A stretch of 64,000 nt of DNA, from positions 1-64,000 of the forward strand of contig NZ_FNQE01000011.1 in NCBI RefSeq assembly GCF_900107485.1, given 5' to 3'. Below are positions 1 through 17,628 of this stretch, in pieces. The DNA comes from Proteiniborus ethanoligenes (GTDB lineage: Bacteria; Bacillota; Clostridia; Tissierellales; Proteiniboraceae). The notes beneath the pieces are model-generated. The model saw only the letters and a list, made by a program, of their open reading frames with translations, was not told where the DNA came from and searched no databases. Position 1 is the stretch's first letter, and each line of letters begins with the position of its first letter. The translations under genes and the position numbers were made by a program.

Positions 1-180
1 CATAACGATAAAGGATCTTAAAAGAGCATGAAGACAATAACCAGTAGGTCCAACTTTAGACGAATGATATTTTGGGAAACTAGACAAATCAATGATATCG
101 AAGATTTTTTCATAAAATTTTGTTTTGCTATTAGATGTAAATAAATCAATGTTATTAAAGATTAATTGACGTTCAAACAA
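1..180 (-). mobile_element. Transposase N-terminus, cut by window edge
   Basis: Reading the minus strand from a TTG codon at 178-180 gives 60 uninterrupted codons running off the left edge. The product begins LFERQLIFNNIDLF and continues with a FYEKIFDIIDLSSFP-like segment. This resembles the N-terminal region of DDE transposases of the IS4/IS5/IS1182 type; I cannot fix the family. A GGAGG ribosome binding site at 189-193 lies 8 bases before the TTG, which decides the start. The catalytic region is outside the window, so it is unknown whether the element is intact. Confidence 0.6.
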
Positions 181-249
181 GGGCTTCGCCTCCTTAATAT
201 AATATTTGGTGGTACTTATATTATTTGACATAAAGAGGCGAAAACCCTT
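179..249. repeat. Inverted repeat around the transposase ribosome binding site
   Basis: The plus-strand stretch AAGGGCTTCGCCTCCTTA (about 177-194) is an imperfect inverted copy of TAAAGAGGCGAAAACCCTT (about 231-249). The inner arm contains the GGAGG of the transposase, so a hairpin in the mRNA could hide its ribosome binding site. The outer arm may also mark the end of the insertion sequence. Both roles are inference. Confidence 0.45.
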
Positions 250-283
250 TTTGAAAATAGAAATATTTTTGAGTGATAAGAAA

Positions 284-310
284 AAATCACTGTATAGAAC
301 ACAGTGATTT
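284..310 (-). terminator. Hairpin with minus-strand T-run at the IS border
   Basis: AAATCACTGT (284-293) and ACAGTGATTT (301-310) form a perfect 10-bp stem with a 7-base loop. On the minus strand the hairpin is followed by a run of T, so it would stop transcripts entering the transposase gene from outside, as is common at IS edges. Confidence 0.5.
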
Positions 311-365
311 CAAGCGTTGCAAGTTATGACAAACGCTATACCTTTAATAGAATGGAGGTGACATC

Positions 366-653
366 ATGAAAAACAAACATCTTAAACAAGAAATTAATAG
401 ACTGCTAACTTCTGTGATGCAAGCCTTTGGTAAAGATTCTAGGGAATATCGGGATGCCGAATACTACTTCGATGTCCTTGAAACGGTCTACCATTACAAC
501 TACAGTGATGGATTAGATTTACTGGATGAGTTAAAGAACTTGCTGGGCAAATTATCAGGTAGAATACCTGAATTATCATCTGATATGTTCACACAATGCT
601 ATCCAAATATCAGTGAGATGATAAAATGTCTTGAGGAATGGCTATCTGATTAA
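366..653 (+). CDS. Hypothetical protein, 95 aa
   Basis: A small acidic, apparently all-helical cytosolic protein with no signal peptide or membrane segment. The start is supported by a GGAGGTGA ribosome binding site a few bases upstream. A clear rho-independent terminator follows its stop, so it appears to be a monocistronic gene. I do not recognise the family. It sits between an IS fragment and other orphan genes, which suggests accessory DNA. Confidence 0.65.
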   Translation: MKNKHLKQEINRLLTSVMQAFGKDSREYRDAEYYFDVLETVYHYNYSDGLDLLDELKNLLGKLSGRIPELSSDMFTQCYPNISEMIKCLEEWLSD

Positions 654-662
654 TAATCTTAT

Positions 663-693
663 GGCTTTTCAGTTTTTTCTGAAAAGCCTTTTT
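663..693 (+). terminator. Rho-independent terminator
   Basis: GGCTTTTCAG (663-672) pairs with CTGAAAAGCC (679-688) around a T6 loop and is followed by TTTTT. It lies about 10 bases after the stop of the 95-aa gene. Confidence 0.85.
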
Positions 694-770
694 ACATAAT
701 ATCACACTGTTTTTTTGCAATAAAAAACCTGCATTCTGCACACTTTTTATTGTTAAAATGTGGTTCTGGA

Positions 771-1064
771 TTATGATTTTTTTACTGAATTTTTAACCGC
801 AATTAAATATATAACTCCCAAAATCGCTAATGCTGCAAAGATAACTGTAACCCAGTGCGAAGAAATTTGACCTGACAAATAAATTGCTGTTGGTCCGTCT
901 GCACCACCTATAATTCCTACTGAACCCGCATCTCTTATATCCTTATTAAGTTTATATGATAAGTATAATGGCAATAAGTAACTGGAAAATGCACTGATAA
1001 CGGCTATTAAAGTGCATGTAACGGTAACTGCTGTAATTGCCTTCGTTAATTTCCTATTTTTCAT
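771..1064 (-). CDS. Small membrane protein with GGADGPTAI motif
   Basis: A 97-aa protein with a hydrophobic segment at about residues 10-33 and another at about 70-90. Between them lies GIIGGADGPTAIYLSG (about residues 50-65). That motif is a signature of the beta subunits of sodium-pumping decarboxylases (OadB/GcdB/MmdB), which are large multi-pass proteins of roughly 370-430 aa. Here only the signature with two membrane helices is present, so it cannot be a complete beta subunit. It follows the 1097-1621 gene by 32 bases on the same strand and is probably co-transcribed. Function unknown; the similarity is seen, a role in Na+ transport would be inference. Confidence 0.65.
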   Translation of the reverse strand: MKNRKLTKAITAVTVTCTLIAVISAFSSYLLPLYLSYKLNKDIRDAGSVGIIGGADGPTAIYLSGQISSHWVTVIFAALAILGVIYLIAVKNSVKKS

Positions 1065-1096
1065 ATCTTACTCACTCCATATATATTCGTTTTTTA

Positions 1097-1621
1097 TTAA
1101 GGCATCATCTTTTGCTGCTTACTTGTTTTTATGATATTTCTTTCATCTGCTTTATCAATGTCAAATAGAGAGTCATCGTTTATAACAGGACTATTAATCT
1201 GTGTAAAATCCACATCATTCCTGTCGAGAGTAATATCTAGAACTACTTTATTATCTTTTACAAAAATTAGTTTATGAAATATATCATCATCCAATGGGTG
1301 CTCTCCGAACCAAGTTTTATCACATATTAGATAACCGATATAAGTGTCCGCTGTAGTCCATTTTATGCCTATTACCTTCTGCATTTCTGTTCTGCTAATA
1401 TAAGGTCGTATAACATACATCCTATCCCATTCAAAAGGAGTTATATTATTCATATCAAAAGATGAGTTTTGCTGGACAGTTGTCATCAGTTCACTTTTGA
1501 AACTTTCTAAGTGCTCATTATCGATTCTTTGACTACGATAATTTATATAACTTAATAAAAATAGTATCAAAGGTATTATTAAAAGTACTGATATAATGAT
1601 AGTTTTCTTTTTGATTTTCAT
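1097..1621 (-). CDS. Hypothetical single-pass membrane protein, 174 aa
   Basis: The N-terminus has a positively charged start (MKIKKK) followed by one hydrophobic segment at about residues 8-25, then a soluble part of about 145 residues predicted outside the membrane. No lipobox is seen, so it is likely anchored by an uncleaved signal. The C-terminal part is rich in Asp and Ile and has no motif I recognise. It precedes the small GGADGPTAI protein in the same orientation. Family unknown. Confidence 0.65.
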   Translation of the reverse strand: MKIKKKTIIISVLLIIPLILFLLSYINYRSQRIDNEHLESFKSELMTTVQQNSSFDMNNITPFEWDRMYVIRPYISRTEMQKVIGIKWTTADTYIGYLICDKTWFGEHPLDDDIFHKLIFVKDNKVVLDITLDRNDVDFTQINSPVINDDSLFDIDKADERNIIKTSKQQKMMP

Positions 1622-2334
1622 ATCTTCCTCACCTCATAAAGGTTACATGTACTATCTCTCTACATTTTCCCAAGGTTATATATTTACTATTATATTGTAT
1701 AACCGAAGTTATTAATAGAGTCTTTTCTATAGATTTTTAATAAGAAAATGGGTAAGAAAGAACGAACTGTTATTATTCGCAATACACTATATTCCACGAC
1801 ACCTATCTCCTTTTAACCAATAATCTCCCCTGTACCTATTATAGTTATATTTTAGAATCGCTTTTTATCCCCTAATACTTAAAAACCATTTCTAACCCTT
1901 TTTCCTTAGCCAAAGCATATAATACCTATCAAATTGCTCCGTTTCTGACGCAAAAAGGTGCATTTCTAATAATTCATTCTTATTACTTCTCTATATAAGA
2001 GTAACGTTTCTAAAATCGAGTTTCGCCCCTTAAAATGCAAAATATTTTAATATAAAAACAAAACAGAGGAAATAAATTGCTACAGAGCAACCATTTCCTC
2101 CATTTTGTCCGCTTATTAACACTCCCTAGAATGTCTGCATTAAAAGTATCATATTAGATGTTGATTGTAAAGAGTTTTATCCCTTTATTCCCTAAAGATA
2201 GAGTATTAGTTCCTTTTAGTTCCTAACTTTTTATTCCAGTTCGTTTGAGAACCCTTTATGTGAATGCAATATAGGGACTCGAGGGGTAAAGGATAAAGAT
2301 TAAGGTTGAATACTAAAAATGTTCTATAGTAAAA
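1622..2334. other. Gene-free AT-rich interval
   Basis: No coding region is supported here. It should contain the minus-strand promoter of the 1621-771 gene pair. A large stem-loop spans about 2058-2107: GAGGAAAT (2066-2073) pairs with ATTTCCTC (2093-2100), with an inner TTGCT/AGCAA stem. On the minus strand it is followed by a T-rich tract, so it may be a backup terminator for transcripts coming from the parM/parR pair. The rest is pyrimidine-rich without clear signals. Confidence 0.5.
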
Positions 2335-2369
2335 AGAGCAGAAATAAGGCTAAACCTTACTCCTACTCT
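2335..2369 (-). terminator. Terminator of the parM-parR operon
   Basis: A 15-bp stem (2335-2349 with 2355-2369), perfect if three G-U pairs are allowed, with a 5-base loop. It is followed on the minus strand by TTTTT and lies directly after the parR-like stop codon. Confidence 0.8.
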
Positions 2370-2374
2370 TCACA

Positions 2375-2659
2375 TCATATCTGATTTATAATATCAAAAA
2401 CATCATCAGGGATACCGTCTGCTATTTCTTCACCATTTGCTTTATTAACTGTAAAAACCCCTATTTCCTCAATGGCCTCCTTGAAAGCATCTTTTATAGT
2501 CTGCTTATCTATCGATTTGTTGTTCTCTAAATAAGCAAAGACAGTTTCTATAACAAATGCTGTTTTTGCAGAACGCTTGGATATTATGATTTCATAAACT
2601 TCTCTTGCTTTCTCGCTTCTCAAATCAAAACTAAGGTTTATTCTCTTTGTTTCTCCCAT
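2375..2659 (-). CDS. ParR-like DNA-binding protein
   Basis: A 94-aa protein beginning MGETKRINLSFDLRSEKARE, with a ribbon-helix-helix-like N-terminus (short beta strand INLSFDL then helices) and an acidic C-terminal tail. In ParMR plasmid segregation the small RHH protein ParR binds the centromere and couples it to ParM filaments, often through its C-terminus. The call rests on this fold pattern, on size, and on position directly after the actin-like gene. The ATG at 2657-2659 is chosen over the GTG at 2668 because an AGAAGG ribosome binding site lies 8 bases before it. The GTG overlaps the parM stop. Confidence 0.6.
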   Translation of the reverse strand: MGETKRINLSFDLRSEKAREVYEIIISKRSAKTAFVIETVFAYLENNKSIDKQTIKDAFKEAIEEIGVFTVNKANGEEIADGIPDDVFDIINQI

Positions 2660-2664
2660 CCTTT

Positions 2665-3591
2665 TCACCTTCTTCTCAAGGCTTCTTTAATAAGCCTTTC
2701 ATATCCAAGAGCATTAGCAATCTGACTTTCAGCAAGTATTTCAGTATATCCGATGCGATTTTGATGTTGTCCAAGGTCAAGGGTCTTTTGTACAATATAG
2801 GCTCCCCCACCCATCAACAAATTCATTGTTGCCTGAAGTTCATAGCCGTTTTCACGGAGTTCGTCCAGCATTTCATTAACAAAAGCAATAGTTGCTGTCT
2901 TTATGATTTTGTCTATCCTATCATCGAAAAACAATGCCTTTTTTCCTTGAAGTGTCATCTCAATTTGTTCCTCTGAAATTTCAATACCTGTTTCCTTTCT
3001 TATCTGTTCTTGTATCTTTTTAACTAGTTTTATCATTCCCCAGTTCAAACTAATTGCTGAATTAATAATTGGCTTCCCTTGATGTATTTTTACCGCATCC
3101 AAGGTTACCTGCCCAAAATCGAGCAGATTCAAGTAGTCAATTCCTCTATACTTTTCAAAGTGAAGCATGTAGCCTGAAATAGCCTGCGGGAAGCACATAA
3201 CCTCTTTAATATTTACCTGGTATTTCTTCTGATTATAGGTAAAATCAATATTTTCCCTTTTAAAATAATTGATGAACTTTTGTTTTAGTTGAAAGTGGGA
3301 TAACGGTAATCCAACTCCTAAAATTGCATCTGCACTTGTTAGTCCTTCTTTATTTAACCTCATAGCCAACGCTGGAAGCGTGAGGATAAAGAAAGTTTCA
3401 TCTAACGTTTTATCATAACGATATTTAACTCTATTTCCCCCGATTGAATAGTATTTGTCGTTGTAATACAGTAAGTTTTCTGTTATAGGGGGAACAGTAA
3501 GGCTTTCAACATATCCTGACGAATAAATTCCTTCTAAAGACTTAATAAATCGGTTGCCGTGGTCAACTCCAATAATTGTTTTATTTTCCAT
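2665..3591 (-). CDS. ParM-like actin ATPase
   Basis: A 308-aa cytosolic protein of the actin/Hsp70 ATPase fold. Near the start IIGVDHGNRFIKS matches the phosphate-1 loop (D-x-G-x-x-x-x-K). LLDFGQVTLDAVKI fits the phosphate-2 region and LLMGGGAYIV the adenosine motif. Length is close to plasmid ParM/StbA and Alp proteins (about 300-330 aa). Such proteins form filaments that push apart plasmid copies. Gene order, actin then small DNA-binding protein, is that of type II partition operons. The ATG at 3589-3591 is chosen because GGAG ends 8 bases before it; the in-frame GTG at 3600 overlaps that site. It suggests an integrated plasmid or conjugative element; no replication or integrase gene is visible. 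Confidence 0.75.
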   Translation of the reverse strand: MENKTIIGVDHGNRFIKSLEGIYSSGYVESLTVPPITENLLYYNDKYYSIGGNRVKYRYDKTLDETFFILTLPALAMRLNKEGLTSADAILGVGLPLSHFQLKQKFINYFKRENIDFTYNQKKYQVNIKEVMCFPQAISGYMLHFEKYRGIDYLNLLDFGQVTLDAVKIHQGKPIINSAISLNWGMIKLVKKIQEQIRKETGIEISEEQIEMTLQGKKALFFDDRIDKIIKTATIAFVNEMLDELRENGYELQATMNLLMGGGAYIVQKTLDLGQHQNRIGYTEILAESQIANALGYERLIKEALRRR

Positions 3592-3707
3592 ATGCAGCAC
3601 TCCTTTTCCAATTTTATTTATGAAAGGTCCTTCTTAGATTTATCAGGTTCCTTTATGTTCTTTTGCATCTTAATGAAACATTTTTTATGATTTCAAGTAT
3701 TTCTGCA

Positions 3708-3741
3708 AAAAAAATTGCTTACCCGCAAAACCAGGTAAGCA
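3708..3741 (-). terminator. Terminator in the parM leader (possible attenuator)
   Basis: TGCTTACC (3716-3723) pairs with GGTAAGCA (3734-3741). On the minus strand the hairpin is followed by an uninterrupted T8 run, typical of intrinsic termination. It lies about 120 bases before the parM start and downstream of a good promoter at 3811-3839, with no gene between, so it would cut the leader RNA short. Confidence 0.7.
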
Positions 3742-3810
3742 CAAAATTAAATAATACGGAGGTTATTTCATAAACATTGTAAAATGCCTTAATAAACGTA
3801 AACATATATT

Positions 3811-3839
3811 TTATAATAAATCATTCTATGCAAAGTCAA
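3811..3839 (-). promoter_or_regulatory. Probable promoter for parM-parR
   Basis: On the minus strand TTGACT (3834-3839) is followed after 17 bases by TTATAA (3811-3816). Transcription would start near 3804, giving a leader of about 210 bases that includes the terminator at 3708-3741. Confidence 0.55.
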
Positions 3840-4162
3840 GCATTTTTTCTAATTTTTTGACTTTTTTCTCATTTCCTTTTACCTAAATCCTTTTTATATA
3901 TTATGTATTTAGTAAATCTCTTCAAACCCTTTAATTCACGGCATTCGTAGAAGTTTTTAAGCGACAAAAACTAGTTTAGGGTATATTAGGGAGAAGGTTT
4001 ATTGGGTTAAGGAACAAGTATATATATTGTGCTCCCCCTTAATACAATACCTTAACCCTTTTCCCTTCTAATGATTACCTTACAAAAATCCTTCTATCAA
4101 AATTTGACTTATCCCTGCTCTTCCGTATAATGTGGAAAATCAAACTTGAAAGGATGAATTCT
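3840..4162. other. Gene-free interval before the four-helix gene
   Basis: No gene is supported. The notable content is the palindrome at 4004-4058, described separately. The rest is T/C-rich on the plus strand. Confidence 0.4.
4004..4058. repeat. Palindrome left of the four-helix gene
   Basis: GGGTTAAGG (4004-4012) is perfectly inverted as CCTTAACCC (4050-4058). The flanks AGGGAGAAGG (about 3988-3997) and CCCTTCT (about 4063-4069) extend the symmetry. A related palindrome lies just after the gene at 4581-4618. Confidence 0.7.
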
Positions 4163-4567
4163 ATGAGTCAAAATTTATACATAAAAGACTTCAAAAGCCT
4201 AAAAGTTTGGCAGAAGTCGAATGCTTTGGAACAGGATATAGGGGAATTAGTTAAAGGATTTCCCAGTTATGAGCAATATAGGCTTACAGACCAGTTAGTA
4301 CGGGCTGTTAGAAGCATAGGAGCAAATATTGCAGAAGGAAATACCCAACTGTTTATAAAGCGGGAATTATTCCATGCAAACGCTGCTTTAGGTAGTGCAG
4401 GAGAAGTAAGAAATCATCTTCTTACCGCTTTTCAGAATAATTATATTTCAAAAGAACAATATGAGATTCTAGATAATAAAACAACCGAGATTATCAAAAT
4501 GCTCTATGGTTATATAAAAAGGTTGAAACTGGAGATAGGTAATGATTCAGATTTTAGTGACTCCTAA
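4163..4567 (+). CDS. Four-helix-bundle protein (S23/IVP family)
   Basis: A 134-aa protein starting MSQNLYIKDFKSLKVWQKS, the typical opening (DFxxLxVWQKA) of the family also known as 23S rRNA intervening-sequence proteins. RAVRSIGANIAEGN is the other hallmark. Members form pentameric four-helix bundles. Some are encoded inside 23S rRNA insertions, and a related group (Avd) assists diversity-generating retroelements. The ATG at 4163-4165 is chosen because AAAGGA lies 8 bases before it. The gene is alone between two related palindromes. No reverse transcriptase or rRNA is in the window, so its role here is unknown. Confidence 0.85.
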   Translation: MSQNLYIKDFKSLKVWQKSNALEQDIGELVKGFPSYEQYRLTDQLVRAVRSIGANIAEGNTQLFIKRELFHANAALGSAGEVRNHLLTAFQNNYISKEQYEILDNKTTEIIKMLYGYIKRLKLEIGNDSDFSDS

Positions 4568-4580
4568 TAATGGTACAAAC

Positions 4581-4618
4581 AAGGGTTAAGAGTTTTTCCC
4601 TTTCTACCTTAACCCCTT
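4581..4618. repeat. Palindrome right of the four-helix gene
   Basis: AAGGGTTAAG (4581-4590) is inverted as CTTAACCC(C)TT (4608-4618), with one extra C. The arms match those of the left palindrome at 4004-4058, so the gene is bracketed by related inverted repeats. Confidence 0.65.
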
Positions 4619-4876
4619 ATGCCTTATTCCTCCTTCTAGCCTTCCTATACGCATTTTTTAGCCCTACAGGTAATGTTGCCCCTTTTAAAATTAGTGCAAT
4701 CAATAAGAAAAAACGCCTTGGAAAGACCGCTAATCCTCCAAAGCATTCTAAAAAATCCTAATAGTCCTATTATAAAAAAATGTTCCTAAAGTTAAGGTAT
4801 TGACCCACCTTGGCTTTCACATTCCTTTATATATTATACTACATTTTACTCTTAATTTTCATAACTGTATAATAAA
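4619..4876. other. Gene-free interval
   Basis: No convincing gene. A 63-codon open frame at 4570-4761 lacks a ribosome binding site and has no recognisable product. Confidence 0.4.
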
Positions 4877-4936
4877 TTCCCTTAATATACTTTAAGTTCC
4901 CGTAATGTACCCTATATTCCCGTAACGTACATAGAA
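4877..4936. repeat. Three tandem 20-bp iterons
   Basis: Three adjacent copies start at 4877, 4897 and 4917, each with the core TTCCC(T/G)TAA(T/C)(A/G)TAC followed by a less conserved 7 bases. A 20-bp spacing keeps every copy on nearly the same DNA face, as in plasmid replication or partition iterons. No Rep gene is next to them. Confidence 0.7.
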
Positions 4937-4954
4937 TATCCTTATCCCCGACAC

Positions 4955-5518
4955 TTATTCAATTCTGCCCCACTTTAGTTCTTCTCCGTTTACATTATAT
5001 TTCTTTCTTTTGGCTGTAATTTCTTCAATTTCTATAGAATATACATTAGTCCCTTTTAATCCTGCTTTAACTGCCATAGGGAAGTAAACCATCTTTGTTG
5101 GGGTGTATTTTTCACATATTAGCCTTAGTCCTCTGACCCTTTCTTCGTCATCCTCTACTAATTTCACCCTCCCTACTACAATAGCAGATTCAAATTCGGT
5201 AGTAAAAACTTTACTACTAAGTATTCCTGCTTTTGATTTATCTTTCATGATTTCATCTAATTCCTCGTTGGAGTAGATTTCTGGAATTTTTGTCTCCCCA
5301 ACGAAAACTACACTAACCTTAGGATTCTCCTTAAGTGCCTTAACCTTTCTCCCATCCATAGCCGAATGAAAATATAACGTATTTCCATCTCTTGCAATAG
5401 AAAGGGGAACACCGTAAAGTTCATTATCATTATCTACCATCGAAAGAACTCCATATATGGATTTATCTATAACTTTAAGCCCAAATTCCCTGTCCATTTC
5501 TCTATCTTTTCTTCTCAT
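4955..5518 (-). CDS. Pyridoxamine-phosphate-oxidase-like flavoprotein (NimA-type)
   Basis: A 187-aa cytosolic protein starting MRRKDREMDREFG, the usual opening of the split-barrel FMN-binding family that includes NimA nitroimidazole reductases. YGVLSMVDNDNELYGVPLS, LYFHSAMDGRKVKAL and NPKVSVVFVGE follow the family pattern for FMN contacts. Members typically reduce small molecules; the substrate here is unknown. The ATG at 5516-5518 has AGGTGA 5 bases before it and is preferred over GTG at 5527. It follows the 5524-5958 gene with only a few bases between, so translation is probably coupled. Confidence 0.85.
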   Translation of the reverse strand: MRRKDREMDREFGLKVIDKSIYGVLSMVDNDNELYGVPLSIARDGNTLYFHSAMDGRKVKALKENPKVSVVFVGETKIPEIYSNEELDEIMKDKSKAGILSSKVFTTEFESAIVVGRVKLVEDDEERVRGLRLICEKYTPTKMVYFPMAVKAGLKGTNVYSIEIEEITAKRKKYNVNGEELKWGRIE

Positions 5519-5523
5519 AAATT

Positions 5524-5958
5524 TCACCTGCTTGTTCCATATTTTAACTTACTCCCAAGCCACCCATCCACACTTCTCCATTTTATATTTTTGGAAGAAA
5601 GCCATGTAACACTATTATCTCCTATCTCCCAATCCCCTGCTTCAGCCCAATAATATAAGCCATCCTTATAAACCAATGTTGTATCAAATATCATATACCA
5701 GTGATTTGGAGGAGTTGATATAATATTTATCTTATTGACACCCCAAAATAGCATTTCTATTGTAGAAGGCTCTTTTCCTTGCCTTTGAAATAATACTTTC
5801 GCATTAAGCATTCCATCTCCAGAATCCATGCTTAAATCTTCGTCTACATAATAATCATTCCAAAGATGCATTTCCCTTAAAACTCCATCATGGAATCCTC
5901 CAAAAGTCTTTAGCAAATCATTTATATCATTTTCTGAATTAATCTCTTTCCAATCCAT
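5524..5958 (-). CDS. Hypothetical protein, possible immunity protein
   Basis: A 144-aa soluble protein. The N-terminal FGGFHDGVLREMHLW recalls the FHD-type motif found in some polymorphic-toxin immunity families (Imm50-like), a weak resemblance. It is Trp- and Tyr-rich with many predicted beta strands. GGAGG lies 8 bases before its ATG. It starts a tight pair with the flavoprotein gene and lies in an island of similar small proteins (5.5-10 kb). I do not claim a firm function. Confidence 0.65.
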   Translation of the reverse strand: MDWKEINSENDINDLLKTFGGFHDGVLREMHLWNDYYVDEDLSMDSGDGMLNAKVLFQRQGKEPSTIEMLFWGVNKINIISTPPNHWYMIFDTTLVYKDGLYYWAEAGDWEIGDNSVTWLSSKNIKWRSVDGWLGSKLKYGTSR

Positions 5959-5993
5959 CTCATTATCCTCCCATTTTACTGCTTAATTAACTT

Positions 5994-6449
5994 TCATAAA
6001 TGCTTTTCTTTCAGTAGCCACGGCAGCGTAACTTCAAATTCTAATTGAAGTACTGGTCTTGGAAAGTTCTCTGATACAAGGTCCAACTCATCAGTAAATA
6101 TAAACTTCACATTGTCAATTCCTATAATATTTAAATCATCCCACTTCCTAATTCCAGCACTAGGTCTTTTAACGATTTTACCCACCAAATGATACAACCC
6201 CATATATAAATGTTCATTAGTATTAATATCAGTTTCATACTCCATAAACTCCCCTTCTTTTCGAGGGTCAATTCCTAAAATCGTATAAAAGTCCATAACT
6301 TCTTTCGAAAATGTTTTACAATTCATTATGTAGTTTTTACAGTAATCACAGTCACAGCCTTCTTCAACTGTTATACTATTATAATATTCCTTAGTTTTTT
6401 CAACATCAATTTTAAGCACCCAATCTTGTAAATAAAAGGTCTTCATCAT
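5994..6449 (-). CDS. Hypothetical protein with CxCxxC cluster
   Basis: A 151-aa soluble protein starting MMKTFYLQDWVLKIDVEKTK. It has a short cysteine motif CDCDYCKNY near residue 33 followed by another Cys, which could bind a metal. The rest is mixed alpha/beta with no recognised domain. AAAGGA lies 10 bases before the tandem ATG. Homologues in Firmicutes, as I recall them, are uncharacterised. It sits between the immunity-like gene at 5524-5958 and a membrane protein, same strand. Confidence 0.65.
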   Translation of the reverse strand: MMKTFYLQDWVLKIDVEKTKEYYNSITVEEGCDCDYCKNYIMNCKTFSKEVMDFYTILGIDPRKEGEFMEYETDINTNEHLYMGLYHLVGKIVKRPSAGIRKWDDLNIIGIDNVKFIFTDELDLVSENFPRPVLQLEFEVTLPWLLKEKHL

Positions 6450-6506
6450 AACATTTTATTCCTTTCAGATTTCTTTAGCCTTATTCATTCTCTACATTTC
6501 ATACTT

Positions 6507-7118
6507 CTATAGCCCACCAATTATATAAGACAACAAATCAAATTTACTGAGAAATACTGATGTTAATATTGTAAATATCGATACTTTTAAACATTGATAT
6601 TTGTTTTTCGGTAAAATGCAAAAAAGTATAATAGAAGCAATTAAATCAAACCCTGAAACTGGAGAAAAGGTATAAAAAAAGTTGTACCCTTCTGAAACCA
6701 ATAATCCAATAGGAAGGGCAGCACATAATGCTGAAATCCATCCATTTCTTTTGCTAAACCAAACAATATAGGCAGCCAACGGAGATAATAAGGCAATTAA
6801 TCCCCAGCGAATGAAATAATATGTAGGAAAGAAATTAAATAATTTCATAGAATATATATAGTAAGCCAGCAGCATTCCGACGAAAAAAGCAAAAACATGA
6901 ATTGCTCCTGCTTTGGGTGTTCTGCTCCATGCGGCAATAATACTAGCAATAAAGACCCATATTCCTATTCTGGAACTTATGTTGCTAATTATGTTAATTA
7001 GACTGCCAATCGTACCATTCGAAGGTATAGTATCAATATATTTTGCAAGAAATCCGGAAAGGATTCCTAAAACAAAAAATAACATAATTCGGGTTGCCTT
7101 TTGTTTGGTATTTAGCAT
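6507..7118 (-). CDS. Multi-pass membrane protein, DUF6518-like
   Basis: A 203-aa integral membrane protein with about six hydrophobic segments, the first starting at MLFFVLGILSGFLAKYI. A conserved-looking AWSRTPKAGAIHVF stretch lies between two helices. This pattern resembles the DUF6518 family of Firmicutes; function is unknown. The ATG at 7116-7118 is chosen because GAGG lies 9 bases upstream. A 60-bp piece including its last 12 codons is repeated at 8826-8886, so a second copy of the gene once existed nearby. Confidence 0.65.
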   Translation of the reverse strand: MLNTKQKATRIMLFFVLGILSGFLAKYIDTIPSNGTIGSLINIISNISSRIGIWVFIASIIAAWSRTPKAGAIHVFAFFVGMLLAYYIYSMKLFNFFPTYYFIRWGLIALLSPLAAYIVWFSKRNGWISALCAALPIGLLVSEGYNFFYTFSPVSGFDLIASIILFCILPKNKYQCLKVSIFTILTSVFLSKFDLLSYIIGGL

Positions 7119-7227
7119 GGTTTCATTCCTCATTTCACTAACAGCATTAATTTAATACTCCTCAATAATATTCTCTATTATCTATTAGGTGATTATATTA
7201 ATCTCATCTACTTCATCACTATTAAAA

Positions 7228-7680
7228 TTATCTATCGTACACATCAAAATGAAAATCTTTTGGTATAATTGAATGAATGTATTCAACCTCTTCTTTAGTC
7301 AAACATTCAGCAGCAAATTCACTACCATAATGCTCCGCTGAAAAAACATACTTATCCTCATCCATGAAAAAGATGCTAAACCATTTTATTTTGCCTTCCT
7401 CATCAAAAGGATTATGTATTAATTCAAATACAAATTCTTTTGTAATTTCTCCAGTGAAAACTTTCATGTTATCTATGCCTGTATCAAGAACTCTCCCAAA
7501 AACTTCTGCTCCTTCAATGGCTATTTCTTCATCAATCCAGCAGTCAATTCTAAAATGAGTACATTTTTTTATAAAATGAGATAGTAATGGTTCCCAAAAA
7601 TTATAGTTAGTTGGAACTATCATCCCATTTTTAGTTTTACGTCCTTGTGATATCTCAAAATGTATAGAATACTTTTGCAC
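7228..7680 (-). CDS. Hypothetical protein, immunity-like
   Basis: A 150-aa soluble acidic protein with no membrane segment, rich in aromatic residues, with alternating beta strands and a C-terminal EEVEYIHSIIPKDFHFDVY helix. Size and composition are like those of small immunity proteins; the family is not recognised. It starts with GTG at 7680, and its GGAGGG ribosome binding site lies inside the last codons of the preceding WapI-like gene, a coupled arrangement. Confidence 0.65.
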   Translation of the reverse strand: MQKYSIHFEISQGRKTKNGMIVPTNYNFWEPLLSHFIKKCTHFRIDCWIDEEIAIEGAEVFGRVLDTGIDNMKVFTGEITKEFVFELIHNPFDEEGKIKWFSIFFMDEDKYVFSAEHYGSEFAAECLTKEEVEYIHSIIPKDFHFDVYDR

Positions 7681-7683
7681 TTG

Positions 7684-8043
7684 TTATCCCTCCATTACCT
7701 CTATAAAAGTTTCTTCAACAGCATTTCCGTATATTGTTCCTGATATTGTAATATGACCTGTTTTATCCAAACAAAATTGTATGTTAGAGCCGTAGCAAAT
7801 ATCATTTAGTTCTACCTGTCTTAATTTAAAATCATATAACTCTCTTATTTCCTTAACAAAACGTATAAAGTCTTTAATGTTGTATTCAAATTCAGAAACC
7901 CCTGTAAAATCTCCTGAAATTACTTTAACATTAAAAGTTGTATTATACGGATTCCCATTATTGAAATCTTCGTAGGAAACACTGATATTACTAATAATTA
8001 GTTGCTCATAGGGGTTCCCCGTAATAATAGAGTATGATTTCAA
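7684..8043 (-). CDS. WapI-type immunity-like protein
   Basis: A 119-aa soluble beta-rich protein. The pattern 'FTG-x-EF-Y-NI-DFIRFVKEIRELYD', then 'GSNIQFCLDKTGHITISGTIYG', follows the WapI family of contact-dependent toxin immunity proteins as I remember it. WapI binds and neutralises the C-terminal tRNase of the cell-wall toxin WapA. No WapA-like toxin is in the window. The start is best placed at TTG 8041-8043: AGAGGTGA ends 5 bases before it, and the in-frame GTG at 8052 lies inside that site. It is coupled to the next gene. Confidence 0.6.
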   Translation of the reverse strand: MKSYSIITGNPYEQLIISNISVSYEDFNNGNPYNTTFNVKVISGDFTGVSEFEYNIKDFIRFVKEIRELYDFKLRQVELNDICYGSNIQFCLDKTGHITISGTIYGNAVEETFIEVMEG

Positions 8044-8167
8044 GTTTATCACCTCTTAAAACTTATATTGTACTTGGTAAGTATTTTAATACTGTTCTGT
8101 CACAACATAACAAGAATATGCATTAATTAATCACACATTATGCTCATAATCCTATTACCAAATACAA

Positions 8168-8392
8168 CTATTTTTTCTGTTTAATGCTTGAGCCAATTGC
8201 CAATCCCAAACACATTCCAATACTCATACCTATACCTGTATTTTTAAAAAGCAAATTACCTACTATCATTCCAAGACACATACCCATGCACATTCCTACT
8301 GCCAAATAATTATCTTCTTCGTTTTCTTCAGAACTGTCGTTGTTTTCATCATCAATCTCTGTATCTTTATTTTCCTTATCCTTTTCATCCAT
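8168..8392 (-). CDS. Small Gly/Met/Cys-rich membrane protein
   Basis: A 74-aa protein with a highly acidic N-terminus (about residues 1-27, mostly Asp, Glu, Asn) and a C-terminal membrane part. GMCMGMCLGMIVGNLLF and GMSIGMCLGLAIGSSIK (about residues 33-71) are two glycine-zipper helices that repeat each other. Such hairpins resemble glycine-zipper proteins of unknown function in Firmicutes. The unusual Met and Cys on one face could contact metals; that is speculation. Confidence 0.6.
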   Translation of the reverse strand: MDEKDKENKDTEIDDENNDSSEENEEDNYLAVGMCMGMCLGMIVGNLLFKNTGIGMSIGMCLGLAIGSSIKQKK

Positions 8393-8420
8393 GATTTCAA
8401 TTTCCTCGTCTTTCTATTTT

Positions 8421-8804
8421 CTACTTAATATTTATAGGTATAGACTTCTCGAGACTTTCTCTATTCCCATCAAGATAATCAGGTAACCTTTCCTCTATAC
8501 TACAACCATCTAGCGAATACCATGTTACTTTTTCAATAACATCACGCATACTTTTTCCATTAAAGACCTTTGCATTTATAATGTCCTCTAATCTAGTATA
8601 ATCATATGCTTGTGAACCATCTGGAACCAACCCGTACCAGTATACTGCTTTTCTAGGATTATCTCTATCTGGCATTTTCCCCAGCCAGCAATCATCATAC
8701 ACTATATCGTTATCAATACAAAAATTCATTTCAATACAGGAATTATACTTTACTACATCTGTGTTTAAAACCTTTCTTAAATCTTGTAATTTGATTTTCG
8801 GCAA
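8421..8804 (-). CDS. Hypothetical protein, immunity-island member
   Basis: A 127-aa soluble protein with the stretch DDCWLGKMPDR, then VYWYGLVPDGSQAYDYTRLEDIINAKVFNGKS, which I associate with a conserved Firmicutes family of unknown function. The likely start is TTG at 8802-8804, with GAGGGG 8 bases before it; the GTG at 8813 overlaps that site. It lies between the Gly/Met/Cys-rich protein and a gene remnant. Confidence 0.6.
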   Translation of the reverse strand: MPKIKLQDLRKVLNTDVVKYNSCIEMNFCIDNDIVYDDCWLGKMPDRDNPRKAVYWYGLVPDGSQAYDYTRLEDIINAKVFNGKSMRDVIEKVTWYSLDGCSIEERLPDYLDGNRESLEKSIPINIK

Positions 8805-8825
8805 TATTCTCACCCCTCAACATTT

Positions 8826-8886
8826 TCCTTTCTCTACATCTCATACTTCTATAACCCACCAGTTAGATAGGGCAACCAACCAAATT
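8826..8886 (-). pseudogene. 3' remnant of a DUF6518-like membrane protein gene
   Basis: About 60 bases match 6485-6545 at roughly 80% identity. Read on the minus strand it encodes FGWLPYLTGGL then a stop, against FDLLSYIIGGL in the intact gene at 6507-7118; the following non-coding bases are also alike. Similarity ends at the stop codon of the hydrolase gene at 8887, so only the tail of a duplicated copy remains. Confidence 0.65.
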
Positions 8887-9582
8887 TCAAAACTTATATT
8901 CAAACCTATCATTAAAATTCCCATTAAAGCAGTAATATACTGTACGAAGATTCTTTGAGTAAACCATAGAAAAGTCAGTAACCCATTCCCCATTTCTTTG
9001 ACTTACAGTGTCAAGAATACTAAATGCTGTTTCAATATTTACTTGCTTTGCTTTTTCTAATGCATAGGATACGGTTTTAAATCTGATGCAGTCACATTCA
9101 ACATTTTCATATAAATTGTCCCATAACGAGAAATTCGTCATAACAAAAAATGGTGAAGATTTTGCTGGATTGCTTATATTGCCACGGCCAGGTTCTACTA
9201 CCCAAACATTTGCATTTGAATCGCAAATCATATTATGACTGCTCCAGTTTGGAGTATTTACAACCTCAATGTTTTCTAGATATTCCCCCAGATTTTCCGT
9301 ACAAATAACGCCATTGATAATATCTGTGATAAGTTTGGTGGTATGAGTAACTTTTTTGCTTGCTCTTTTGTATAAACCTTTCCCATTTGAATTGACTACA
9401 AGATTATTAAAAAACCTACCAAAACAATCCACTCCAAAAGATGGATATTTCCCATGTCCATTATCAACTTGTACAATAAACCAGTTAGGATTTTTAGTGT
9501 CAATAGAGTATTTCATACCATTGTTATCAAAATTCATTCCAATAATTGTATCTTGTCCTCGATAAATAAAACTTGTACACAT
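8887..9582 (-). CDS. Linear amide C-N hydrolase (choloylglycine hydrolase family)
   Basis: A 231-aa Ntn-hydrolase-type protein starting MCTSFIYRGQDTIIGMNFD. Removal of Met would expose Cys as the N-terminal nucleophile, and the following R and D contacts are typical of the bile-salt hydrolase/penicillin V acylase superfamily. FVMTNFSLWDN fits the later Asn region. It is shorter than classical bile salt hydrolases (about 315-330 aa) and belongs to a shorter subgroup; the substrate is unknown. GGGGAG precedes the ATG at good spacing. No signal peptide. A duplicated gene tail abuts its stop. Confidence 0.8.
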   Translation of the reverse strand: MCTSFIYRGQDTIIGMNFDNNGMKYSIDTKNPNWFIVQVDNGHGKYPSFGVDCFGRFFNNLVVNSNGKGLYKRASKKVTHTTKLITDIINGVICTENLGEYLENIEVVNTPNWSSHNMICDSNANVWVVEPGRGNISNPAKSSPFFVMTNFSLWDNLYENVECDCIRFKTVSYALEKAKQVNIETAFSILDTVSQRNGEWVTDFSMVYSKNLRTVYYCFNGNFNDRFEYKF

Positions 9583-9720
9583 AAATAACTCCCCTATACT
9601 TACATTGATTGAATAGCGATTTCTTCATCCAAATATCTCGCTATAAATAATCTTTATTACACAATAACATGTTGTTTTTCACGACATATAAATGGTGTGT
9701 CATAATAACTTCATTACATT

Positions 9721-10158
9721 CTAAAATTTCTTTAACAACAAAAGGTTAAAAAACCAAAAGCAAACCCCATATATAGCACCTGCCAAAGCAAGTACAGCAA
9801 TCCAAATTATGATATTGGACATGCCTATTTCTAAAGTGATTTTGTTTTTGATAGCCAAGAAAAATAAAGATACTGCTATTCCACCAATTGTGAAAAAAAG
9901 AAAATTCTTTATAAATAAATTTTTCTTTTTTTCACGAAGTTGTGGTAAAAAGTTTTGCAAATATTTATATTGAATGAAGTCTAAAATTGCAATTAGTAGT
10001 ATTAACCACAAAAAACCGATTGGCGGAGGAAAGTCTGCACCTAAAAACATTATTAATGTCCACCCACAAAAAAACAATACTGTGTTTATTAGAATGATTT
10101 TCAAATTACTCAAGCCACCATCTCCATTTCCATATAGGAAATTTTTATTTCGTACCAC
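9721..10158 (-). CDS. Four-helix membrane protein, 145 aa
   Basis: Hydrophobic segments at about residues 22-42, 46-65, 86-105 and 115-140 suggest four membrane passes. A basic cytosolic loop (QLREKKKNLF) lies between the second and third. No recognised family. The start is uncertain: the frame opens with GTG at 10158 and no strong ribosome binding site is visible. It is the last gene before the repeat-filled tract. Confidence 0.5.
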   Translation of the reverse strand: MVRNKNFLYGNGDGGLSNLKIILINTVLFFCGWTLIMFLGADFPPPIGFLWLILLIAILDFIQYKYLQNFLPQLREKKKNLFIKNFLFFTIGGIAVSLFFLAIKNKITLEIGMSNIIIWIAVLALAGAIYGVCFWFFNLLLLKKF

Positions 10159-11542
10159 TATACCAATTCGTAATATTTATAAATTATCTTTGCTTCATAT
10201 AATCCTACTGATATAACTAACTCATATATATTTCCATTATACATATATAAATTTAAAATAGTAGATTATATTTGGATAAAACTAGTATAACTTTATTTTC
10301 ACTTTGATAGAACTTTCCTTACAGCAAAAATATTTTTTTGTTTCTAAATTATTATCCATATGAGTTTAAGAAACAGAAAAAATAGGGCATGTTCTATAGA
10401 GATGCAAATAAAGTCCTTATATGAATTCCCTACAATTACCAACCCTCTTGTACCTTAAACCATTATCAAATCTCGTATTCCCAATGCCTTTCCTTGTTCC
10501 TTATACCTTTAAATGACACAACTTTATTTTCATTATAAAAGAACTTTACCATCCATAAAAATATTTTTTCTTTTTCTAAAACTTATTTCTATCATTTCTG
10601 AAACAGAAAAAACATGCTAAGTTCTTATAAAAAGTAAATAATGTCCTAATTCTTTTTCCCTTTTATCCACAATTCCCTTATATTTTATATACTTTATCCC
10701 CATTCATGTATCAAAAAATGTGGGTAAAACACCATCTAAGAACTTTATTTTCTTTTTGTAACTACTTTTCTGCAATGCAAGGACTTTTCTGTTTCTAGAA
10801 TTTTTCGCAACATTATTTTTAGAAACAGAAAAATAGGCCTATGTTATATAGTAAAAGTAAATAAAGTCATTTCACGAATTACCTTTAATCTCCATATTCT
10901 TTTAACCTTGGAACTTAACCAAACCCTGTATTACCAATGCCTTCCCTTATTCCTTATCCCTTCTAATACCACTACTTTATTTTCTTTTTACAACAACTAA
11001 TTAACCCCTATATTCTGCCTAATTTATTTCCTATATTCCTTACCCCTTTTTCCTTGTTCCTAACTATGTGTTCATCAAACAAACTCCTCCTCTTTTTCAA
11101 ATAAAGTTCTCTCACCAACGCCCCTCAAACCCTTGATACTACTGACTTGTTATTCTCTTCCAATTATCCATTTAATTCCTTAATCCTTGAACCTGACCTT
11201 ATAAAGTACTTGTATTTCTTAAAAATCAGGGTAAAAAACGAAAATAAAGTTCTATTAGGATTGAGGAAATAATAGGATTTAGGAACTAGGGATAAGGGGA
11301 GATTTTGTCCATTTATTCTTCCATTTTCTTATCCATTCAATCTTCCAATTCATTGATTTATCTGACTTTTAGCCTTGTCTCCTTTTTCTATATCCGTCGT
11401 AAACTTCTAATAAAAAACATGGCCTACAGGGCTTTCCTTGACCCTAATAAACCATGTTTCCTAATACTACTTTATTTACTTCCTATCGAGAATTTGCATA
11501 ATGATAGGACTTTATTTGATGGGGACATAAAAAAATTCCATG
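10159..11542. repeat. Non-coding tract of about 230-bp degenerate repeats
   Basis: The motif ACTTTATTTTC recurs at 10290, 10521, 10742 and 10974, spaced 221-232 bp. Each of the first three units then has a T-rich arm, a spacer and the inverted arm GAAACAGAAAA, followed by AAATAAAGT (10406, 10859; AAATAATGT at 10636), itself the inverse of the opening motif. In unit 3, TTTTCTGTTTCTA (10785-10797) and TAGAAACAGAAAA (10820-10832) are perfectly inverted. Unit 4 (10974-11107) keeps only the ends. An inverted copy lies at about 11208-11250, and ACTTTATTT recurs at 11469 and 11509. The segments linking units are also alike (compare the CCAATGCC regions near 10480 and 10935). No gene is supported. 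Copies are diverged. Confidence 0.75.
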
Positions 11543-12142
11543 CTATATTTCCCTTCTACCCTCTAAAGCCTTAGAGATTGTCACTTCATCAGCGTATTCC
11601 AGGTCACCACCTACTGGTATCCCATGAGCTATTCTTGTGGTTTTTATGCCTAGTGGCTTTAGAAGCTTTGATATATACATTGCTGTGGCTTCTCCCTCTA
11701 TGGTTGGATTAGTGGCTAGTATTACCTCTTTAATATCTACTACTTGTAGCCTTTGAAGAAGCTCTTTTATCCTTATATCCTCTGGCCCTATGCCTTCCAT
11801 AGGGGAAATGCTTCCATGGAGTACATGATATAAACCGTTAAATTCCTTTGTTCTTTCTAGGGCTATAACATCTCTAGGGTCTTCTACAACGCATATTACA
11901 GTTTTGTCTCTTCTTGTGCTATCACAGATAAAGCAAGGGTCTTTTTCGGTAAGATTGCTGCATATGCTGCAATATTTAATATTTTTTTTCGCATTTATTA
12001 TAGAATTAATAAATTGATTTACATCCTTTGTATCCATATTAAGCACATGAAATGCAAGCCGTTGGGCTGTTTTCCTTCCTATACCTGGTAGCTTTGAAAA
12101 TTCTTCAATAAGACTTGCCAAGGGAGGCGCAAAGTACTCCAT
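11543..12142 (-). CDS. recR: Recombination protein RecR
   Basis: A 199-aa protein starting [31 protein letters not shown], which contains the helix-hairpin-helix. [16 protein letters not shown] (about residues 57-72) is the four-cysteine zinc finger, and [13 protein letters not shown] begins the Toprim domain. RecR acts with RecF/RecO to load RecA at gaps. The length equals the usual 198-200 aa. The ATG at 12140-12142 fits AAAGGA 8 bases upstream better than the earlier ATGs, which overlap that site. It lies downstream of ybaB and dnaX as in most Firmicutes, but a terminator separates it from ybaB. Confidence 0.97.
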
Positions 12143-12186
12143 ATACATCATCCTTTCAAATAAGCTGGTTTCAGCAAAATAAAACT

Positions 12187-17258: not shown

Positions 17259-17525
17259 GCCGTGCACCCAGTTTTGACATACTGCTACAAGCGTTACCTA
17301 AGTAGTTAACTCGGATTAGGTACCCCTGCGGCACACGAAAGAGTCCACTTACCGCTGCTTCCTTCCGGACCTGGCGGGGTTCATAGATTTCCGTTGCGCA
17401 GGACCAAATCGTCAACATCACTTTCCTAGGGCAGACCTCACAACAGGATGCCTAGACTGGGAATTCAATCCTGCTATAGCGGGTTGCAGGTTACAGGGCA
17501 CCGCTACCTCCCCATCTAGCACGGC
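17259..17525 (-). ncRNA. ffs: Signal recognition particle RNA (large, Firmicutes type)
   Basis: The minus strand starts GCCGTGCTAGATGGGGAGGT, contains the domain IV core GGTCCGGAAGGAAGCAG with its GGAA loop (near 17361-17377), and ends GGGTGCACGGC. Its 5' GCCGTGC pairs with the 3' GCACGGC. About 267 nt, including the Alu-type 5' domain, is the long form of Bacillus and Clostridium. It starts 10 bases after the tRNA-Ser, probably in the same transcript. Confidence 0.95.
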
Positions 17526-17535
17526 AAAATTTAAT

Positions 17536-17628
17536 TGGCGGAGAGAGCGGGATTCGAACCCGCGAGACGGTTTAGCCGTCTACCCGCTTTCCAGGCGAGC
17601 GCCTTCAGCCAGACTCGGCCATCTCTCC
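17536..17628 (-). tRNA. tRNA-Ser (GGA anticodon)
   Basis: A 93-nt sequence starting GGAGAGATGGCCGAGT and ending with encoded CCA. It has a long variable arm (GACGG/CCGTC), the GGTTCGAATCC T-arm, and anticodon GGA at 17590-17592 in a CTGGAAA loop. The long arm and acceptor are those of serine tRNA; it reads UCC and UCU. Confidence 0.97.

Follow-up and report, generated by a model that had tools for sequence, protein, structure and literature searches.

The repeat array beside recR of Proteiniborus ethanoligenes as the probable end of a Tn7-like transposon homing to recR

The ordered, non-coding tract found beside recR in Proteiniborus ethanoligenes (positions 10290-11527 of the window, the 64,000-nucleotide stretch of contig NZ_FNQE01000011.1 analysed here) is very probably the recR-proximal end of a Tn7-like transposon with a homing site just after recR, a degree of confidence that covers the Tn7-like identity and the site, and excludes the replicative part discussed below. 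It is supported by the position after recR, the TGT...ACA termini, 5-bp duplications in several genomes, the presence of tnsABCD together with defence cargo, and the direct unit copies at element ends. As far as sequence comparison can tell, TnsD would recognise the 3' end of recR, TnsB would bind ~20-bp repeated sites with the core AAATAAAGT, and the alternating array may act as a reservoir of TnsB sites. The end begins 15 nt past the recR stop codon, and its parts are the following (sites numbered from recR inwards):

11543 to 12151, minus strand: recR, the attachment gene
11528 to 11532, minus strand: 5 bp adjoining the terminus, reading TTTTA on the recR strand, a candidate target duplication (TTTAT at the distal end, inexact)
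11067 to 11527, minus strand: terminal unit of 461 bp, TGTCCCCATCAAATAAAGTCC...GGAGTTTGTTTGATGAACACA, with one terminus of the left type and one of the right type
11509 to 11517, minus strand: site 1, L orientation, terminal
11469 to 11477, minus strand: site 2, L
11413 to 11460, minus strand: conserved terminator-like hairpin followed by a T-run, facing recR transcription
11242 to 11250, plus strand: site 3, R
11099 to 11107, plus strand: site 4, R
10290 to 11066, minus strand: inner array of alternating sites every ~115 bp (units 1-4 and linkers)
10974 to 10982, minus strand: site 5, L
10859 to 10867, plus strand: site 6, R
10742 to 10750, minus strand: site 7, L
10636 to 10644, plus strand: site 8, R, core changed at one base (AAATAATGT)
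10521 to 10529, minus strand: site 9, L
10406 to 10414, plus strand: site 10, R
10290 to 10298, minus strand: site 11, L, innermost
1 to 10289, minus strand: transposon interior, cargo genes

Pairs of these sites form the 230-bp palindromes, and the list omits a twelfth relaxed match at 10818, which falls within the hairpin loop of unit 3 and off the spacing. The unit starts with TGT and ends with ACA (ATA in a second subtype), and element ends carry ~20-bp inverted-repeat arrays, as in Tn7-like elements. The inner array sits at the recR side, being absent from the distal ends of C. homopropionicum and Haloimpatiens, the two that were assessed.

The tract had been described in an earlier note, made from the letters, as a tandem array of palindromic 230-bp repeats, an observation that is confirmed here, while its interpretation is partly supported. 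The unit start ACTTTATTTTC is exact at the four positions named (10290, 10521, 10742 and 10974), and the inverted copy placed near 11208-11250 is present at 11240-11250; all of the 64 kb holds 5 exact copies for 0.18 expected, a number reached in 0/100 shuffles. The outer palindrome partner is exact at 10406-10414, 10859-10867 and 11099-11107, but unit 2 carries a one-base variant at 10636-10644. The inner palindrome TTTTCTGTTTCTA...TAGAAACAGAAAA is perfect in unit 3 (arms 10785-10797 and 10820-10832), as had been noted; units 1 and 2 have it in imperfect form, and unit 4 lacks it. Unit linkers can indeed be aligned (72% identity over 140 nt, at a spacing of 453), and the best 100-nt self-match within 10277-11068 at lags of 180-259 reached 63, versus 48.3 on average and 55 at most in 200 shuffles; Tandem Repeats Finder, at its threshold, did not call the array. 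The extent first given (10289-11250) is too short: the conserved feature continues to 11527, adjoining recR. That the tract is neither a gene nor a CRISPR holds for this stretch: an array of CRISPR, integron or other type with no link to transposition, for which regular spacing and palindromes could speak, is hardly credible in view of the alternating orientation, the transposon termini with their duplications and the tns genes, and is contradicted by the bounded islands described below.

A genome-wide search with unit 3 recovered its own locus and elsewhere only weak matches (best E 0.0086), and looked unpromising until longer pieces were used as queries. With the half of the tract next to recR (11060-11540), one more copy and a fragment are found elsewhere in the same genome, on contig C14, and two unit copies plus one partial in the congener G001. 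The short fragment (C14:28087-28216; L043 6088-6217) has 11067-11110 joined directly to 11242-11349, and resembles a deletion between two AAATAAAGTTCT sites. Another repeat lies near the distal end as two 129-bp copies (L043 6591-6719 and 9134-9262, 72% identical), with related pieces on C11 at 73-76 kb. Across the order, the unit was matched in 25/249 genomes (E <= 1e-4; scoring was limited to the top two candidates of each genome, which makes the copy numbers minimum values), and in a class-wide sample in 20/391 (E <= 1e-10). Sequences matching the unit have recR upstream in 17/25 stretches examined, the window included. In four genomes (G000, the window's own, with G210, G171 and G233), core motifs lie at near-constant distances past the recR stop, i.e., 65-67, 280-293, 423-436, 548-561, 663-676, 780-793, 1001-1014, 1117-1129 and 1231-1245 nt, individual motifs being inexact in some of the four. 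The ~1.24-kb tract thus appears as one conserved feature, and not as a decaying array. The comparison of the recR 3' region in relatives, proposed in the earlier note, gave the same spacing after recR in three other families, and of the "decayed mobile-element array" suggested there the transposon end stands but not the decay, as the spacing is kept across families and tnsABCD are full-length frames in the same genome. Its alternative of a protein-binding array was close, as the repeated sites resemble TnsB sites in sequence. Some genomes have fewer inner units (one at L082), and three loci (L087, L088 and L096) keep the first 150-300 nt only.

A scan of the genome collection for the hairpin pattern, using a query free of recR sequence and thus loci not chosen for recR, returned 55 loci spanning Tissierellales, Clostridium, Haloimpatiens, Herbinix, Lutispora, Thermoclostridium, Tepidanaerobacter, Thermosediminibacter and others. 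Of these loci, 43 have recR directly upstream, and in 41 of the 43 the hairpin starts 83-92 nt beyond the last aligned position of RecR (27 and 136 nt in the other two), which is the fixed-distance insertion expected of a homing element. The remaining 12 were not seen beside recR, some being distal ends or located at contig ends. RecR at these loci is 56-75% identical to that of the window, the element blocks being near-identical and mosaic; over the first 60 nt of the unit, loci L098-L152 show a few discrete alleles, recombined differently across distant taxa. Four further genomes from the class-wide search, selected for at least two unit copies, all have the unit at recR. Starting instead from recR, inspection by eye of eight genomes of the order found end-like sequence after the stop, of the same or another subtype, in G002, G003, G021 and G241, weaker end-like sequence in G004, G005 and G023, and none in G020. 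At recR of G002, of the same genus, stands a different end-like unit of ~0.2 kb (L205 1530-1760) that itself has a terminator-like hairpin, and the 12.5 kb examined there contain nothing matching the tnsABCD studied here. Neither the 72,556 plasmid records nor the 50,697 phage records searched contain a match to the unit, and viral collections gave none either.

Could such a tract be an RNA rather than DNA that is moved? Single-strand folding of the plus strand gives unit 1 a z of -5.07 (better than all 200 shuffles) and unit 3 a z of -3.73, with unit 2 at about -2 and unit 4 at -0.33; direct folding of seven variants of the unit hairpin yields hairpins, and compensatory changes in this hairpin were seen by eye. 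The unit hairpin may end transcription coming from recR. It was not called by a generic terminator scan, probably on account of the loop limit of the scan. These folding data, together with the fixed place after recR, led a large structured non-coding RNA, or a long vertically inherited 3' UTR of recR, to be considered after RNAalifold; it was dropped as the main explanation because of the distal copies with target duplications and the tns genes, and is very unlikely. Second copies lie 44-58 kb away with target duplications, tnsABCD lie within bounded islands, 5-bp duplications flank solo units at recR, and unit identity far exceeds that of RecR (95.2% versus 63% between P. ethanoligenes and Haloimpatiens). 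At the gathering threshold, Rfam matched only SRP RNA and tRNA in the 64-kb window, and nothing in the array; these matches are a bacterial large SRP RNA and a tRNA-Ser at 17260-17628, upstream of dnaX. The set of structured RNAs formerly proposed is therefore not the main explanation, although the unit does have a conserved terminator-like hairpin.

The machinery expected of a Tn7-like element is present in the same genome, where tnsA, tnsB, tnsC and tnsD are all full-length frames. These genes, and the cargo proteins of the window with a match, are:

C14 41160-42017, minus strand: TnsA (Pfam TnsA N and C)
C14 39020-41200, minus strand: TnsB (Pfam Mu-transpos_C, the scan covering the C-terminal 326 residues only)
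C14 37366-39048, minus strand: TnsC (Pfam TniB/AAA_22)
C14 35657-37366, minus strand: TnsD (Pfam TnsD, 3.9e-59, and TniQ)
window 2665-3600: actin-like protein
window 4130-4567: 23S rRNA-IVP-type protein
window 4955-5527: PNPOx-like protein
window 6507-7133: DUF6518 protein

Relatives of solved structure include Tn7 TnsD (6.5e-26) and Tn7 TnsA (6.7e-43). Homologues of tnsABCD occur in G001, G003, G249, G250 and G214 (C. homopropionicum and Herbinix included), and TnsA/B/C/D of P. ethanoligenes share 95-99% identity with their C. homopropionicum counterparts, versus 61% for RecR. A close full-length TnsD (at least 64%) was found in 6/249 genomes of the order, five of them among the 25 with the unit; the other 20 unit-bearing genomes lack one (G236 and G241 have distant relatives only), so that most copies there would be remnants or solo units. 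The interior of the window probably continues on C14, a placement made by collinearity, not by joined sequence: the gene order of the window and C14 is collinear with G001, with insertions and losses, and both genomes have a common chemoreceptor gene (identified by its sequence; 70% identity) beyond the distal end, at 5 and 13 kb. If C11 and C14 adjoin, the element would measure ~58 kb, and islands span 44-58 kb in the four cleanest cases. The G001 island runs from 725,253 to about 781,470, with TnsA, TnsB, TnsC and TnsD at 770,763-777,189; its tnsC is split into two frames (C1:773732-775480, L156), compared with one frame in P. ethanoligenes, and that copy is probably not autonomous. The recR-proximal end is located upstream of tnsA. 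Of the ten cargo proteins of the window that were scanned, six lack a Pfam match, and ten C14 proteins compared with PADLOC include type I restriction-modification (methylase 3.9e-299), Shedu (2.9e-122) and a Gabija-like GajA/GajB pair, no Cas effector being among the matches listed for them. A tyrosine recombinase (PF00589) is encoded upstream of tnsA, on the other strand, in 4/6 stretches searched (G000, G001, G249, 42% identical, and G003, 33%), and was not found in those of G250 and G214, the latter covering 1.7 kb upstream only.

In elements of which both ends were read, the distal one is a further unit copy that points the same way, in most cases with ATCTA before it. Eleven paired ends were compared (G000, G001, two in G003, G249, G250, G254, G255, G256, G398 and G470), and six carry an exact 5-bp target duplication (G001, G249, G250, G255, G256 and G398): GATTT in G001, TTTGC in Herbinix, ATAAG in C. 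homopropionicum, AAAAG in Haloimpatiens, ATATT in G398, and ACTTG in Lutispora (G255), where the match needs the terminus TGTATAACC, as in its distal unit, instead of TGTGTATAACC. G000 (TTTTA versus TTTAT) and G254 are off by one position, and the 5-bp flanks do not match in either G003 pair or in G470; in DNA this rich in A and T, such a match is estimated to arise by chance about once in 500. Proximal and distal units are 100% identical in Herbinix, C. homopropionicum and G398 (461/461, 450/450 and 452/452 nt), all three with exact duplications; these are draft genomes, in which assembly could have affected the identity, and the single-contig genomes G001 and G003 give 98.9% and 98.0% (401 nt, other subtype, 109 kb apart), with 94.2% for the other G003 pair. 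Identity is 94.5% in G254, 93.8% over 322 nt in G470, 89.0% in G255, 85.0% in G256 and 74.1% in G000. The element of the second G003 subtype, at recR (L186 2113-2513; C1:310870-311270), spans about 109 kb between 401-bp direct repeats, and has a ~16-kb element behind it in tandem.

Solo-like units, of which six were hand-picked from 53 rows, show an exact duplication in two cases (ATAGT in G205, ATAAT in Clostridium sp. cel8), and no match in the others (L107, which agrees at four of five positions, L145, L128 and L141). Such 451-bp solo units with exact duplications at recR, and the lack of a TnsD match at E <= 1e-40 in G205, would suit an independent MITE family that prefers recR and is served in trans by Tn7-like proteins. 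This is rather unlikely, since units of identical type end the large tnsABCD islands, and the only complete unit examined that lies neither at recR nor at a distal end (L141) shows no duplication.

How does the element move? In Tn7 TnsA, E63 and D114 are catalytic. Aligned with that protein (1f1z), the TnsA of P. ethanoligenes carries Q in place of E63, T in place of D114 and S in place of Q130, and retains K132; Q63, T114 and S130 recur in 6/6 element TnsA (G000, G001, G250, G249, G003 and G214), which thus lack the residues of classical cut-and-paste. Elsewhere in the TnsA family of the order, positions 63 and 114 are Q and T in G236 and G242, E and S in a second protein of G003, and still E and D in another Tn7-like TnsA, that of G241; locus L230 yielded no frame for this comparison. 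In TnsB, what look like the three acidic residues are kept, as judged by eye. According to published work, tnsA active-site mutants and tnsA-less relatives move by replicative transposition or by way of cointegrates, often with a resolvase (PMC8649781, PMC11406308). From the six TnsA sequences devoid of the two Tn7-catalytic residues, replicative transposition is predicted, and it may, with chances that we see as roughly balanced, be the way this element moves, the two-ended unit acting as a mini-transposon. The unit would be copied from a circular donor into the recR site, after which the donor would lie between two direct units of identical sequence, bordered on the outside by 5-bp duplications; a solo unit would result if these direct units then recombined. 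A two-ended unit with replicative movement would explain both the identical direct end copies and the solo units.

The main rival to replicative movement, which is favoured, is recombination: the same transposon would move by cut-and-paste, homologous recombination or gene conversion would keep its end units alike, and solo units would be products of recombination between them. We consider this quite possible, if somewhat short of an even chance. The tnsA gene is retained (59-99% identity), TnsA might use an altered active site, and the mosaic of units between elements points to recombination. The loss in all six TnsA of two residues that are catalytic in Tn7 TnsA argues against it, as does the complete identity of ends 44-58 kb apart in three elements with intact 5-bp duplications.

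Tn7 carries TnsABCDE, homes to glmS and has TGT/ACA ends, its glmS-side end being upstream of tnsA. PMC11406308 is in keeping with this end position, and applies the term Tn7-like to elements that have TnsB, TnsC and, in addition, TnsA, a TniQ protein or both; PMC8649781 gives three and four sites for the Tn7 ends, and insertion sites named in the literature include glmS, yhiN, comM, parE and tRNA genes. The present element resembles Tn7 in its TnsA-D homologues, termini, 5-bp duplication where this is exact (6 of 11 paired ends), insertion a short fixed distance past a conserved gene, and ~20-bp repeat arrays at the ends. Unlike Tn7, it uses recR, has a ~1.24-kb proximal end with 11 alternating sites, bears at both ends direct copies of a 0.46-kb two-ended unit, and encodes a TnsA without E63 and D114. 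With Tn5053 and type V-K CASTs, which are tnsA-less and replicative, it shares the predicted cointegrate route and a nearby tyrosine recombinase, but here tnsA is kept as a conserved gene that has lost its catalytic residues. IS26-type cointegrates and translocatable units have cargo between direct identical small elements, and tandem insertions beside an existing copy. Both traits are seen here, but the enzyme family, the fixed chromosomal target and TnsC/TnsD control differ. The solo ~0.45-kb unit, with its inverted termini and target duplication, resembles MITEs, but has recR as its main location and makes up the ends of large elements.

Taken together, these data may tentatively be read, with a probability just short of even, as a Clostridia-wide recR-homing lineage in which TnsA is a conserved non-cutting subunit and movement is replicative, the unit being a terminal repeat copied at each move, with defence islands of 44-58 kb, solo scars and an array on the recR side only. 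Against the identification as a Tn7-like end at recR count the location of the P. ethanoligenes element on two contigs, its ends without an exact duplication, its end units being 74% alike, the exact duplications in only 6/11 paired ends and 2/6 solo-like units, the 12/55 hairpin loci not seen beside recR, and the 20/25 unit-bearing genomes of the order without a close TnsD. In a literature search covering few subscription papers, none was found that names recR as a Tn7-like insertion site, or that joins Tn7-like elements, TnsB and miniature inverted-repeat elements; in PMC8649781, the two places matching recR belong to the reference list and are unrelated to an insertion site.

recR would thus be the homing site of a Tn7-like family that carries anti-phage systems among Clostridia, represented in P. 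ethanoligenes by type I restriction, Gabija-like and Shedu genes, and TGT...CAAATAAA a few nt past the recR stop would be a marker for finding such elements. The family would also offer a natural test case of a Tn7-like element with a TnsA seemingly unable to cut, and a fixed safe site after recR may serve genome tools in anaerobes.
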